Source of the DNA: Chloroflexota bacterium
GTDB taxonomy: Bacteria > Chloroflexota > Anaerolineae > Anaerolineales > Anaerolineaceae
Assembly (NCBI GenBank): GCA_021796375.1
Contig: JAJYJF010000022.1
Location: 1 to 12,931, forward strand
Direction: 5' to 3'
Length of the DNA: 12,931 nucleotides
Both the position numbers and the translations under genes were made by a program. The notes below the pieces were generated by a model. The model saw nothing but the letters and a program-made list of their open reading frames with translations. It did no database searches and had not been told where the DNA came from. Of this stretch, positions 2,677 through 10,167 are shown piece after piece. The stretch's first letter is position 1; each line of letters starts with the position of its first letter.

Positions 2677-2683
2677 TATGGAT

Positions 2684-3637
2684 ATGTTCCCCCGGAAGTT
2701 AAGCTTGGCGGCCGGATTGCTTTTGGCCGTCTTAATCGGTGTCTGGGCGCCCGCCCAGGCGCAAAAAACGGATTCGCAGTATTTTCCGGCCACCGGCCAC
2801 TGGGTTACCGGTGAGTTCCTGGCCTTCTACCAGAAAGCCAGCGATCCGCAGGTGGTCTACGGCTACCCGATCACCGACGCCTTCCAGGATCCGCTCACCG
2901 GCCTGACCGTGCAGTATTTCCAGCGCGCGCGCTTCGAGCTCCACATCGAAGCCCGCGAAGGCGACCGGGTGCAGCTGACCGCGCTGGGAACCCTGCTGTA
3001 CGCGCCCGGAAAACCCGTTTCGCTCCCCCCCGATTCGGCCGCCTGCCAGTACTTCCCCCAGCAGAAGCACTCCCTGTGCTACGCCTTCCTGACCTTCTAC
3101 AACCGCTACGGCGGCGAAGCCCAGTTCGGCGCCCCGATCTCGGATATCGAGGAGCAGGACAACATCTACGTCCAGTATTTCGAGCGCGCGCGCTTCGAAT
3201 GGCATCCCGAGCTCTCGGAAGGGCAGCGCGTCTCGGTCACCGACTTGGGGCAAACTTATTTTGACCAGGTGGTGGATGACCGCTCGCTGCTCGAGCCCAA
3301 GCCGAGCAGCAACCTCCCGCAGTCCGCGATCCAGCTCCAGGCGCACGTTTTCACCGACCGGGCCGCGGTCTCCCCCAACGACAGCCAGACGCTCTACGTG
3401 GTCGTCCAGGACCAGTACCTCCGGGCGGTCCCGCTCGCCAACGTGGCGGTCACCATCCACTACCCGATCGGGGGCGAGGAACGCTACCGCCTGCCCCTGA
3501 CGGACAAGGACGGCATCACCCGGTTTAATTTCAACGTCGGCAGCCAGCCGTACGATACGGTCACCACCGTCCAGGTCGAGGTCACCCAGGGCGGGCTGCA
3601 GGCGAAGACCGGCACCTGGTTCCGGATCTGGTGGTAA
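2684..3637 (+). CDS. Secreted protein with two YFP...RARFE repeats and a C-terminal Ig-like domain
   Basis: The product has 317 residues. An N-terminal signal peptide is clear: basic MFPRK, a hydrophobic core at residues 6-22, and a likely cleavage after AQA at 26. Two tandem repeats follow. The first begins YFPATGHW at 33 and ends VQYFQRARFELH at 76-87. The second begins YFPQQKH at 123 and ends VQYFERARFEWH at 163-174. Each has a central (Y/F)G(Y/A)PI(T/S)D turn. From about residue 215 the protein is beta-rich and Thr/Val-rich, with TDKDGITRFNF, resembling an invasin-type Ig domain. Similar YFP...GyPit repeats are, from memory, common in exported Chloroflexota proteins of unknown role. Start: an ATG at 2678 would lie before the predicted transcription start, so 2684 is preferred. 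Function is unknown; an extracytoplasmic binding or structural role is an inference. Confidence 0.75.
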   Translation: MFPRKLSLAAGLLLAVLIGVWAPAQAQKTDSQYFPATGHWVTGEFLAFYQKASDPQVVYGYPITDAFQDPLTGLTVQYFQRARFELHIEAREGDRVQLTALGTLLYAPGKPVSLPPDSAACQYFPQQKHSLCYAFLTFYNRYGGEAQFGAPISDIEEQDNIYVQYFERARFEWHPELSEGQRVSVTDLGQTYFDQVVDDRSLLEPKPSSNLPQSAIQLQAHVFTDRAAVSPNDSQTLYVVVQDQYLRAVPLANVAVTIHYPIGGEERYRLPLTDKDGITRFNFNVGSQPYDTVTTVQVEVTQGGLQAKTGTWFRIWW

Positions 3638-3670: not shown

Positions 3671-3696
3671 GCCCCTGAGCGCTTCAGGGGCTTTTT
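3671..3696 (+). terminator. Strong intrinsic terminator after the secreted protein gene
   Basis: GCCCCTGA (3671-3678) pairs perfectly with TCAGGGGC (3684-3691) around a 5-nt loop and is followed directly by TTTTT (3692-3696). It lies 33 nt after the TAA stop. Confidence 0.9.
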
Positions 3697-3731
3697 GATT
3701 CATACGGGGGAGAAGGCCGGGACCGCGGTGG

Positions 3732-4000
3732 GCTGCCCGCGCCCTCGCAGCGAGCTGGTTTGGCGGGGGGGCTGCCCGCGCCCTCGCAGCGAGCTGGTTT
3801 GGCGGAGAGGGCTGCCTGCGCCCTCGCAGCGAGCTGGTTTGGCGGAGAGGGCTGCCTGCGCCCTCGCAGCGAACGAAGCGAGCGGAGAGGGTGGGATTCG
3901 AACCTGACGGCCGCAGGTAACGGTTTTATGGCTTCAACCGAATTTTCCTAGCGGAGAGGGCTGCTTGCGCCCTCGCAGCGAACGAAATGAGCGGAGAGGG
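3732..4000 (-). repeat. Array of ~40-bp repeats trailing tRNA-Ser
   Basis: Five units begin GCTGC at 3732, 3771, 3811, 3851 and 3960. The first four are spaced 39, 40 and 40 bp apart. All share (C/T)GCGCCCTCGCAGCGA. Units 1-3 continue GCTGGTTTGGCGG, while units 4 and 5 continue ACGAA...GAGCGGAGAGGG. Read on the minus strand, CCTCTCCG, the 3' acceptor strand of the neighbouring tRNA-Ser plus its discriminator G, recurs between units 2/3 and 3/4, before unit 5 and after units 4 and 5. The 3638-3991 gap holds only the terminator at 3671-3696, this array and a tRNA fragment. The array's translated frames are repetitive and spurious. Function is unknown; tandem duplication of the tRNA trailer is the simplest origin. 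Confidence 0.85.
3882..3904 (-). pseudogene. tRNA-Ser 3'-end fragment (T-loop to discriminator)
   Basis: On the minus strand this matches the functional tRNA-Ser from GGTTCGAATCCC through the acceptor CCTCTCC and the discriminator G. Identity stops at the 5' side of the T-loop, so the T-stem cannot form. The 55 bp further into the would-be tRNA (3905-3959) do not fold as a tRNA. Together with repeat unit 4 it forms a 54-bp segment (3851-3904) that matches 3960-4013 at 51 positions. Confidence 0.75.
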
Positions 4001-4079
4001 TGGGATTCGAACCCACGGTGGACACAGGGTCCACAACGGTTTTCGAGACCGCCCCATTCAACCACTCTGGCACCTCTCC
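3992..4079 (-). tRNA. tRNA-Ser(CGA)
   Basis: The 88-nt minus-strand sequence folds as a class II tRNA. The acceptor GGAGAGG (4073-4079) pairs with CCTCTCC (3993-3999), and the discriminator is G (3992). The anticodon arm is GCGGT-CTCGAAA-ACCGT with anticodon CGA at 4043-4045. The variable arm is long (GTGGAC/GTCCAC) and the T-arm is GTGGG-TTCGAAT-CCCAC. The acceptor and anticodon loop match the general form of bacterial tRNA-Ser reading UCG codons. CCA is not encoded and must be added post-transcriptionally. It lies 89 bp downstream of the RNase D gene on the same strand and has its own -10 element. Downstream it runs into the repeat array. Confidence 0.96.
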
Positions 4080-5427: not shown

Positions 5428-5670
5428 ATGATTAAAATTACCATCACCTACTGCGCGGTCTGACATTACACACCCAAAGCCGTCAGTTTGACGGATGAGT
5501 TGCTGATTGAATTCGAGCCCGAAATTTCGCAGCTGAGCCTGGTCCCCTCGGATGACGGCCGCTTCGAGGTCGAAGTGGACGGAGACCTGGTTTACTCCAA
5601 GCTGCAGACGGGCCGGCATGCCGCGCCCGGCGAGGTGGCCGGACTGGTCCGCAAGAAGATCAAAGGTTAG
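5428..5670 (+). CDS. SelW/Rdx-family selenoprotein (in-frame UGA = Sec12)
   Basis: Reading through TGA at 5461-5463 gives 80 residues: MIKITITYCAV-U-HYTPKA, then a continuous frame to TAG at 5670. This matches the Rdx family (SelW, SelT, SelH and relatives), small thioredoxin-fold proteins with a CxxU or CxxC redox motif. Here it is C9-A-V-U12. The second half, GRFEVEVDGDLVYSKLQTGR (residues 49-68), corresponds to the family's G-x-FEV...vysK...GrfP block. The start at 5428 is supported by GGGGG 7 nt upstream and by the family-typical short beta strand before CxxU. A hairpin 17 nt after the UGA is a good bacterial SECIS candidate. Without Sec decoding only a fragment from TTG 5488 would be called. 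trpS starts 18 nt after the stop, suggesting an operon. The redox partner is unknown. Confidence 0.88.
5480..5494 (+). promoter_or_regulatory. Candidate bacterial SECIS hairpin in the selW-like gene
   Basis: CCGTCA (5480-5485) and TGACGG (5489-5494) form a perfect 6-bp stem with loop GTT. The loop's first base, G5486, is 23 nt after the UGA. That spacing and a G at the loop's 5' side fit known bacterial SECIS elements recognised by SelB. The hairpin lies inside the coding sequence, as expected in bacteria. Confidence 0.65.
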
Positions 5671-5688: not shown

Positions 5689-6675
5689 ATGAAAAAGGGA
5701 CGCGTTTTTTCCGGCGCCCGGCCAACCGGACGCCAGCATCTCGGCAACTACCTCGGCGCGATCCAGAACTACGTGGCCCTGCAGGAGGACTACGACTGCG
5801 TTTACTGCATCGTCGACCTGCACGCCCTGACCACCCTCGAGACCACCCTGGACCTGACCAGCAACACGTACGAGATGGCGCTGGACTGGCTCGCGGCCGG
5901 CCTGCGGCCGGATCAATCCATCATCTTTGTCCAGTCCCACGTCCCGCAGGTGACCGAGCTGCACACCATCCTGTCCATGGTCACGCCGATGGGCAAGCTG
6001 ACCGACCTGCCGACCTTCAAAGAAAAGGTCCGCCAGCAGCCGCATAACGTCAACTATGGGCTGCTGGGCTACCCGGTGCTCATGGCCGCCGACATCGTGC
6101 TGTATAAAGCCAACCTCGTGCCGGTCGGCGTGGACCAGGCGCCGCACATAGAGTTCACCCGCGAGACGGTGCGCTCCTTCAACTACCGCTTCAAGACGGA
6201 CGTGCTGATCGAGCCGGAGATGAAGGCGACCGAGTTCCCCAAGGTGATCGGGCTGGACGGCCAGCAGAAGATGAGCAAAAGCCTGAACAATCACATCGAG
6301 CTGGCGGCCACGCCGGAAGAGACGACCAAACTGGTGATGACCATGGTGACCGACCCGCAGCGCGTGCGCCGCACGGACCCGGGCAACCCGGACATCTGCA
6401 ACGTCTTCGCCATGCACAGGGTGTTCTCGAGCGCCGAAGAGGTCGCGATGGTGAACGTCGAGTGCCGGCGAGCCGGCATCGGCTGCGTGGACTGCAAGAA
6501 GATGCTGGCGCGCAATATGAACGCCGCGCTCGGGCCTTTCCGCGAGCGGCGCGCCGCGCTGTCGCAGGACCCGCAGGCCGTCTGGGACGTGCTGCACGAC
6601 GGCGCCCGCCGGGCGCGGGAGATCGCCGAGGCGACCATGGTCGAGGTCCGCGCGGCGGTCGGGCTGGCCAAGTAG
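5689..6675 (+). CDS. trpS: Tryptophanyl-tRNA synthetase
   Basis: TrpRS is a class Ic aminoacyl-tRNA synthetase that charges tRNA-Trp. The 328-residue product has the class I HIGH-equivalent in ARPTGRQHLGNYLG (residues 10-23; H17, G19) and a perfect KMSKS at 194-198. GYPVLMAADIVLYKA and PVGVDQAPHIEFTRE, around residues 126-153, form the Trp and adenylate pocket. IGCVDCKKML near 264-273 is a common bacterial TrpRS C-terminal feature. The length is normal. The start is the only one that keeps the canonical N terminus. An AGAAAGG tract lies 13 nt upstream, longer than the usual spacing. It is 18 nt after the selW-like gene and 5 nt before dtd, so the three probably share one transcript. Confidence 0.97.
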   Translation: MKKGRVFSGARPTGRQHLGNYLGAIQNYVALQEDYDCVYCIVDLHALTTLETTLDLTSNTYEMALDWLAAGLRPDQSIIFVQSHVPQVTELHTILSMVTPMGKLTDLPTFKEKVRQQPHNVNYGLLGYPVLMAADIVLYKANLVPVGVDQAPHIEFTRETVRSFNYRFKTDVLIEPEMKATEFPKVIGLDGQQKMSKSLNNHIELAATPEETTKLVMTMVTDPQRVRRTDPGNPDICNVFAMHRVFSSAEEVAMVNVECRRAGIGCVDCKKMLARNMNAALGPFRERRAALSQDPQAVWDVLHDGARRAREIAEATMVEVRAAVGLAK

Positions 6676-6680
6676 GGCGG

Positions 6681-7118
6681 ATGCGCGCCGTCCTCCAGCG
6701 GGTGATGTCCGGCCGGGTCAGCGTGGGGGGGCAGGCGGTGGCCGAGATCGGCCGCGGGCTGGTGATCCTGCTCGGCATCGGCCCGCAGGACGGCGAGGAG
6801 CAGGCGCGAGCCCTGGTGGATAAAATCGCCCACCTGAGGATCTTCGAAGACGATCAGGAAAAGATGAACCTCTCCGTGCTGGATGTGCGCGGAGAGGCGC
6901 TGGTTGTATCGCAGTTCACCCTGTACGCCGATACGCGCAGGGGCCGGCGGCCTTCCTTCACCGGCGCGGCGCTGCCTCCCCTGGCGGAGCCGCTCGTCGG
7001 GCGCTTCGCGGAGCTGCTGGCGGCGCAGGGCGTCCCCACCAGGCGGGGGGTGTTCGGCGCCCACATGCTGGTCGAGATCGCCAACGACGGCCCGGTGACG
7101 ATCATTCTGGAAGAGTGA
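6681..7118 (+). CDS. dtd: D-aminoacyl-tRNA deacylase
   Basis: Dtd hydrolyses D-amino acids (and Gly) mischarged on tRNA. At 145 residues it has the standard length. The active-site motif SQFTLYAD (77-84) followed by TRRGRRPSF is intact. So is the cross-subunit Gly-cisPro loop in GVFGAHMLVEIANDGPVT (123-140; G137-P138), which enforces chirality in the homodimer. The ATG at 6681 follows a GGGCGG tract, and the trpS stop is only 5 nt upstream. The pairing with trpS is a sensible quality-control grouping because Dtd acts on D-Trp-tRNA among others. No clear terminator follows. The next annotated gene on the other side is convergent. Confidence 0.96.
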   Translation: MRAVLQRVMSGRVSVGGQAVAEIGRGLVILLGIGPQDGEEQARALVDKIAHLRIFEDDQEKMNLSVLDVRGEALVVSQFTLYADTRRGRRPSFTGAALPPLAEPLVGRFAELLAAQGVPTRRGVFGAHMLVEIANDGPVTIILEE

Positions 7119-9093: not shown

Positions 9094-10167
9094 ATGAGCG
9101 AACCTATCCAATCGACTTCCGGGCGGCAGATCCGTCTGACCAGCCTGTCCAGCTGTGCTGGCTGAGCGTCCAAGCTAAGCGCGGAAGCGCTGGCGCAGGT
9201 CCTGCGCCCGGTACAAAACCTGTATGCCCCCGAAGACTATCCCGACCTGCTCGTCGGGCTTGGGTCTCCGGACGATGCTGCCGTCTGGCGGCTGGACGGC
9301 GAGCGCGCGCTGGTGGTGACCACCGACTTTTTCACCCCGGTGGTGGACGATCCTTACGATTACGGCGCGATTGCCGCGGCCAACAGCCTCTCGGACGTGT
9401 ACGCCATGGGAGGGAAACCTTTCCTGGCGCTGAACATCGCCGCCCTGCCGGTGGATTTGCCGGCCGAGATCGCGGGCGAAATCATGCGCGGCGGGGCGGA
9501 GAAAGCGCGCCAGGCCGGGGTGGTGATCGCCGGCGGCCACACGGTCCAGGATAAGGAGCCCAAGTACGGGCTGGTGGTGGTGGGGATGGCCGACCCGGGG
9601 AGGATGATCACCAAAGCCGGGGCGCGCCCCGGAGACCGCCTGGTGATGACCAAGCCGCTGGGCTTCGGGGTCACCACCACGGCGCTCAAGCGCGGCCAGG
9701 CGGCGGCCGCCGACGTGGCGGATGCCGTGCGCTGGATGGTGGCGCTGAACGACCGCGCCTCGTCGCTGGCGCTGTCCTGCGGCGTGCGCAGCGGCACGGA
9801 CGTGACCGGGTACAGCCTGCTCGGACACGGCCTTGAAATGGCGCGGGCCTCCGGAGTGGGGCTGCGCCTGGCGATGCGGCGCATCCCCTTCCTGGCCGGC
9901 GCGGCGCGCTACGCGCAGCTGGGAGCATTCCCGGGCGGCACGATCGAAAACCAGGCGTTTTTCAGCCCCGACGTGCGCTTTGACCCGGCGATCGATGACC
10001 GCCAGCAGCTGCTGCTCTTCGACACGCAGACCAGCGGCGGGCTGCTGCTGGCCGTCCCGGGCAGCGCCCTGGCAGACCTGAAAGAACGGGCTGCCCGGAT
10101 GGACCAGCCGGTCTGGGAGATCGGCGAGGTCGTCCCGGGCAGCGGCATCGAGGTAGTGCTGGAGTAG
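9094..10167 (+). CDS. selD: Selenide, water dikinase SelD, itself a selenoprotein (Sec24)
   Basis: SelD makes selenophosphate from selenide and ATP, the selenium donor for selenocysteine (and selenouridine) synthesis. Reading TGA at 9163-9165 as Sec gives 357 residues, a normal length. The N-terminal SSCAG-U24-ASK27 aligns with the GCGCK region of E. coli SelD, where Cys17 and Lys20 are catalytic; the Sec/Cys-x2-Lys spacing is conserved. Downstream are GSPDDAAVW, TDFFTPVVDDPYDYGAIAAA, SLSDVYAMGG, the ATP/metal-binding AGGHTVQDKEPKYGL and LLFDTQTSGGLL, all characteristic. The start has AAGGGA 4 nt upstream. Ignoring Sec would leave only a frame from GTG 9313, missing the active site. Hairpins right after the UGA are SECIS candidates. 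The LysM/M23 gene starts 26 nt downstream. Confidence 0.96.
9178..9208 (+). promoter_or_regulatory. Candidate bacterial SECIS region in selD (two adjacent hairpins)
   Basis: Two hairpins follow the UGA. AGCGC-GGAA-GCGCT (9178-9191) puts its loop G 18 nt after the UGA. GGCGCAG-GTC-CTGCGCC (9192-9208), a 7-bp stem with a 3-nt loop, puts its loop G 34 nt after. Both have a G at the 5' side of the loop. The second resembles the selW-like hairpin (loop GTT). Sequence alone does not decide which SelB reads. Confidence 0.55.

Follow-up and report, generated by a model that had tools for sequence, protein, structure and literature searches.

A predicted SelW-like selenoprotein gene next to trpS in a Chloroflexota bacterium

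SelW-like proteins and the rdx frame

SelW-like selenoproteins with a CxxU motif are an established bacterial family and have already been published. For the 80-residue SelW of Campylobacter jejuni, translation past the UGA codon is documented by Ribo-seq and proteomics in PMC11955535. PMC1794560 has a table entry for SelW-like proteins whose first numerical column reads 10, credits the Chloroflexi with three selenoproteins from three families, and states that Cys homologues of SelW-like proteins are very rare or lacking in organisms that contain Sec. In PMC2398784, 427 SelW-like selenoproteins are counted in ocean samples, SelW-like and SelD are named as the most widespread, and SelD features as a known selenoprotein family; the SelW-like family is also tabulated in PMC9312934, and PMC4959059 describes Anaerolineales with Sec-annotated formate dehydrogenases and Sec translation factors.

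The locus described here lies in a 12,931-nucleotide stretch of DNA from a Chloroflexota bacterium (the window); the names of its relatives point to an Anaerolineales-like member of the phylum. A frame that we call rdx (5428..5670, + strand) opens with ATG at 5428, runs through an in-frame TGA at codon 12 (5461..5463, + strand) and ends with TAG at 5668-5670. The read-through product has 80 residues and the N-terminus MIKITITYCAVU, in which U stands for the proposed selenocysteine of a C9-x-x-U12 motif. The Pfam profile Rdx (PF10262) matches this product with 70.9 bits (1e-19, cut-off 22.6) across residues 3-76, that is, over profile positions 1-74 of 74 and hence the whole length of the domain; the NCBIfam model CXXU_selWTH (TIGR02174) scores 57.2 bits, over its cut-off of 34.2. 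Both the frame and the profile scores bear out the preliminary description, which had read an 80-residue Rdx-type protein from ATG 5428 with UGA at the CxxU position, and the homology extends upstream of position 12 in the Pfam and NCBIfam profiles alike. The more specific model SelTWH_Campy (NF041051) reaches 81.7 bits, under its cut-off of 88, and rdx is therefore not assigned to the Campylobacter SelW equivalog.

The features shared with bacterial SelW-like proteins (PF10262, TIGR02174; for example Campylobacter SelW, NF041051) are a length of about 80 residues, the CxxU motif, a match to the Rdx profile from end to end, and a UGA followed by a hairpin. Two features set rdx apart from Campylobacter SelW: the score under the equivalog cut-off and the position ahead of trpS in this order. 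The solved Rdx/SelW proteins (2fa8, 3dex, 2p0g, 2obk, 2oka, 2ojl, C17orf37 2ljk and SelW 2npb) are matched by the family profile with E values from 7.9e-18 to 8e-7 and are distant in sequence; none of the solved matches listed comes from this clade. Taken together with the family to which it belongs, rdx probably encodes a SelW-like (Rdx family) selenoprotein with a thioredoxin fold and a redox role, both of which are carried over from the family only. The predicted CxxU motif sits near the N-terminus; its U is specified by UGA, and homologues have either U or Cys in that place.

Conservation of the UGA codon and the hairpin downstream

Relatives were sought in 41 genomes, comprising the genome of the window itself, 24 genomes labelled by the search tool as the same family and 16 labelled as the same order. 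An rdx match was found in 23 of them, 22 with an in-frame TGA and one (G016) without any stop. At the DNA level the CxxU codon is TGA in all 22 stop-bearing matches, the window's own genome included, and TGC (Cys) in G016; one of the matches (G031) has an additional in-frame TAG near its C-terminus, which is taken as the true end of the gene. A class-wide draw of 396 genomes, which partly overlaps the 41, yielded matches in 179. Among the 150 of these that were listed, 148 have a single TGA, none has TAA or TAG, and two are stop-free, carrying Cys in the motifs YCAPC (G185) and YCTQC (G192). Position 12 was thus found to be occupied by C or U only, as anticipated for a genuine CxxU site: 22 UGA and one Cys in the 23 closer matches, and Cys in both stop-free matches of the class.

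The TGA position was read in 49 distinct loci and in another 18 stretches, of which G091 and G097 duplicate loci already counted. Upstream of the UGA the codons are conserved as protein, including the Cys of the family, and the downstream frame is conserved too. UGA-containing relatives of rdx also occur outside the phylum, in Ammoniphilus (L033) and in a Rhodopirellula MAG (L034), and both of these genomes have selB over the cut-off. The recurrence of UGA at codon 12 is more than chance would produce. The Ammoniphilus (Bacillota) relative (L033:5001-5231) has two UGAs in the motif YUTGU, possibly a UxxU arrangement in a SelW-like protein; it was seen in one genome only, where selB scores 388 bits, and could reflect a sequencing error.

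Bacterial SECIS elements, as modelled by bSECISearch, are hairpins that follow the UGA at a short distance and carry a G in the first two bases of the loop. In rdx a SECIS-like hairpin occupies 5480..5494 (+ strand), with a stem formed by 5480-5484 and 5490-5494 that starts 16 nt after the UGA (CCGUC paired with GACGG, AGUUU in between) and a G at 5486. The ViennaRNA fold closes a sixth pair (A-U) and leaves the loop GUU; in either fold a G is among the first two loop bases, and the predicted structure in its main register agrees with the bacterial SECIS geometry. Counted from the UGA, the stem corresponds to columns 20-24 and 30-34, in which 92.8% of the cells pair across 25 UGA loci. Stem covariation in the same loci is 0.441 compared with 0.264 after shuffling, a value reached in 0 of 500 shuffles, which leave the relatedness among loci in place, and sliding the partner strand by 1-3 columns reduces pairing to 15-62%. 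Two of the five covariation measures are less clear: the number of pairs changed on both sides is 2, which was reached by 364 of 500 shuffles, and the number of further pair types is 7, reached by 17 of 500. The G-loop hairpin proposed in the preliminary description is thereby found again as a covarying element.

Codon usage provides a second line of evidence. Complete stems are present in 23 of the 49 loci, as opposed to a mean of 7 and a maximum of 15 in 1000 draws from a codon null that keeps the residues and draws their codons from the rest of the same genes. In the remaining 26 loci the register is shifted towards the UGA, with 6/6 pairs in 21 loci and 5/6 in five, according to a rule that was set post hoc from the folds and carries no chance comparison. 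Column 26 is G in 49/49 loci; in the main register this base is the second of the loop, and in the shifted one it would be paired. Where the codon covering column 26 encodes serine, it is AGY in 31/31 loci, compared with 44/190 serines elsewhere in the same genes (naive probability 2e-20, the loci not being independent). The region after the UGA is under RNA-level constraint, and the hairpin dictates the choice of codons and seemingly also of residues, as in several loci where the two sides of the stem encode Ile with Met or Thr with Val. The Rfam model SECIS_1 (RF00031) found no match in the window's own genome; since it was silent in all 14 control genomes as well (0/14), this null result is uninformative. 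Nor did any SECIS family turn up in the window when Rfam was run at a loose threshold.

Taken as a whole, these observations make it very probable that codon 12 of rdx specifies selenocysteine, whose incorporation we predict. SelB carrying Sec-tRNA would bind the hairpin just after the UGA, selenocysteine would be inserted at codon 12, and the resulting C9-x-x-U12 pair could then carry out thiol/selenol redox chemistry on a partner protein, for which the product of the conserved neighbour trpS would be the first candidate. We know of no bacterial substrate of the Rdx/SelW family; the conserved trpS neighbour is a lead towards one.

Three other readings of the UGA have to be weighed. If it were a real stop, either nothing or only a 60-residue product starting at TTG 5488 (5488..5490, + strand) would be made. 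Mechanical ORF calls do begin at this TTG, which lies within the SECIS-like hairpin, and 85/85 database matches to the rdx protein start downstream of the UGA, as the preliminary description had expected of standard annotation, which it thought would drop the gene or start it at TTG 5488. Among the 85, P0002 is apparently the 60-residue product encoded by the window itself. Such a product would have no CxxU pair, and its Rdx score of 44.6 bits is 26 bits lower than that of the read-through protein; moreover, protein-level conservation extends to the codons ahead of the UGA, among them that for the Cys of the family, the stop is TGA and never TAA or TAG in the 148 stop-bearing matches listed for the class, and Cys takes its place in G016, G185 and G192. 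We regard a real stop as most improbable.

The database also lends some colour to the idea that UGA is read as tryptophan, through a changed code or leaky reading. The family profile matches 5395 proteins among 7991 candidates scored, and the best 120 of these (P0087-P0206) have W at the selenocysteine position in 63 cases, Cys in 36 and L or R in three, the other 18 being truncated; the W entries are, we infer, most simply UGA codons translated with code 4. At the DNA level, TGG was found in none of the loci in which the codon was read, and the sense replacements are Cys. Of 12 genes checked in the window, six use TGA as their stop and only rdx and selD have it in frame; neither the covarying hairpin nor the presence of Sec genes is in keeping with a tryptophan codon, a reading that we consider scarcely credible. 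A pseudogene, sequencing error or chance frame, which a draft, metagenome-like assembly of 435 contigs might lead one to suspect, is refuted by 49 distinct loci that share this stop at the corresponding codon and keep the downstream frame conserved, and its probability is negligible. With selenocysteine as the preferred reading, a well-supported selenoprotein clade is mostly lost by automatic annotation, the active site being missing from 85/85 database matches, and this wide mis-annotation is possibly unreported.

Selenocysteine machinery and selD

The genome to which the window belongs is a draft, metagenome-like assembly of 435 contigs with an estimated completeness of 64%. The preliminary description had made its reading depend on selA, selB and selC in this genome. 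The first two are present, with selA at 539 bits and selB at 252 bits (cut-off 242), the latter starting at a contig end where it is apparently cut, but tRNA-Sec (selC) was not found by Rfam, by a model derived from eight relatives, by ARAGORN runs on the contigs that carry selA and selB, or by an anticodon-arm pattern, in searches that scored 78/488, 149/479 and 150/667 first-look candidates. The sole match to the anticodon-arm pattern, with one mismatch, was rejected because neither ARAGORN nor the model recognizes a tRNA there. tRNA-Sec was found in relatives from the family and the order, and in one of them (G024) the contig stops within the anticodon loop and leaves the gene truncated; an incomplete assembly is therefore a credible reason for its absence from the window's own genome.

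Across the 41 genomes, selB over the cut-off or a clear tRNA-Sec (at least 53 bits, with the partial G024 gene added by hand) is present in 21 of the 22 genomes with UGA-containing rdx and in 11 of the 19 others (Fisher P 0.006, uncorrected for kinship). For selB alone the figures are 20/22 and 11/19 (P 0.026); for tRNA-Sec alone they are 17/22 and 10/19, which is not significant (P 0.11). G009 has a UGA-containing rdx and no selB over the cut-off, and G026 combines a UGA-containing rdx with neither selB over the cut-off nor a clear tRNA-Sec, while having a selD with TGA. The single-contig genome G017 (99% complete) has a selD without TGA and lacks an rdx match, a clear tRNA-Sec and a selB over the cut-off, which looks like a loss of Sec coding.

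The window carries a second UGA-containing selenoprotein gene 3.4 kb downstream of rdx, namely selD (selenide water dikinase; 9094..10167, + strand; TIGR00476, 3.1e-108), whose proposed selenocysteine is codon 24 in SSCAGUASK (9163..9165, + strand). This selD resembles the Sec-containing SelD proteins already described, and nothing unusual was noted in it. A possible SECIS hairpin (9178..9191, + strand; stem AGCGC/GCGCT, loop GGAA) is suggested by single-sequence folds only, and rival folds appear with longer sequence context. Besides their UGA-containing selD, three relatives (G010, G016 and G004; L043, L044 and L045) have stop-free SelD-matching frames of 742-753 aa that look like oxidoreductase-SelD fusions; in G023, the selD match (L077:12150-13165) is divided between two reading frames, which points to a frameshift.

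The trpS neighbourhood

Immediately downstream of rdx, 18 nt past its stop codon, begins trpS (tryptophanyl-tRNA synthetase; 5689..6675, + strand), followed by dtd (D-aminoacyl-tRNA deacylase; 6681..7118, + strand; Pfam Tyr_Deacylase, 6e-53). The best solved match of the encoded TrpS is the Thermotoga maritima TrpRS with a [4Fe-4S] cluster (2g36, 2.5e-81), and all four cluster cysteines align. The signature reads C237-x21-C259-x6-C266-x2-C269 and differs in its first gap, which is x22 in the T. maritima enzyme according to PMC2954223. By these four cysteines the window TrpS would be of the iron-sulfur type, with a predicted cluster.

The preliminary description had called the placement before trpS and dtd unfamiliar. 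Within the order the arrangement of rdx and trpS is conserved: rdx is immediately followed by a trpS of the same orientation in 19 of the 22 genomes with UGA-containing rdx, and likewise in UBA2395 and in G016, whose rdx has Cys. In the three remaining UGA genomes this does not hold: dtd comes next in G026 and G029, and in G033 a TrpS with 34% identity is encoded on the opposite strand. The pair does not extend to the class as a whole, an idea that was rejected because trpS was found in 0/18 UGA-carrying stretches from other orders (roughly 4 kb fetched per side, less at contig ends); dtd was nearby in one of these 18. No report of an rdx-trpS gene pair was found in the literature searched, and its occurrence in this order is possibly unreported.

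Among the 18 relatives that lack rdx, TrpS was found in 14, of which 12 encode one with 68-81% identity to the window TrpS. A profile search of the trpS stretches of the 14 genomes detected no degraded rdx beside trpS, the positive control L081 being the only one to score. In eleven rdx-less genomes with upstream sequence available, a close trpS is retained and has no rdx as a neighbour; in G005, trpS stands at a contig start. The four-cysteine signature is present in 20 of 21 rdx-adjacent TrpS proteins (those of the window's own genome, G016 and UBA2395 included) and in 11 of the 12 close TrpS proteins from rdx-less genomes, and a tie between the signature and rdx was accordingly rejected.

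The link between rdx and trpS is real as gene order; a functional link to TrpRS we put forward purely as a hypothesis. In its specific form, TrpRS of the iron-sulfur type would work as a pair with the SelW-like selenoprotein in this order: the selenoprotein would protect or reset the redox state of that enzyme, or a selenium-dependent UGA would set the amount of TrpRS. We consider such a pair unlikely; if it existed, the charging of tRNA with tryptophan would be coupled to redox status or to selenium. The second variant would be an addition to the selenocysteine reading, in which scarce selenium makes ribosomes stop early in rdx and lowers trpS expression. The same-strand arrangement in 19 of 22 genomes and the 18-nt gap in the window are what such a switch would call for, but the gene order persists in G016, where Cys replaces the UGA, the 11 rdx-less genomes with upstream sequence retain a close trpS, and genomes from other orders of the class have a UGA-containing rdx with no trpS in the stretch fetched, all of which leaves the switch a very improbable proposal. 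Upstream of rdx, the window contains repeated units at 3695-3980 (PRPRSELVW when translated), located between the gene at 2678-3637 and a tRNA-Ser at 3991-4079.
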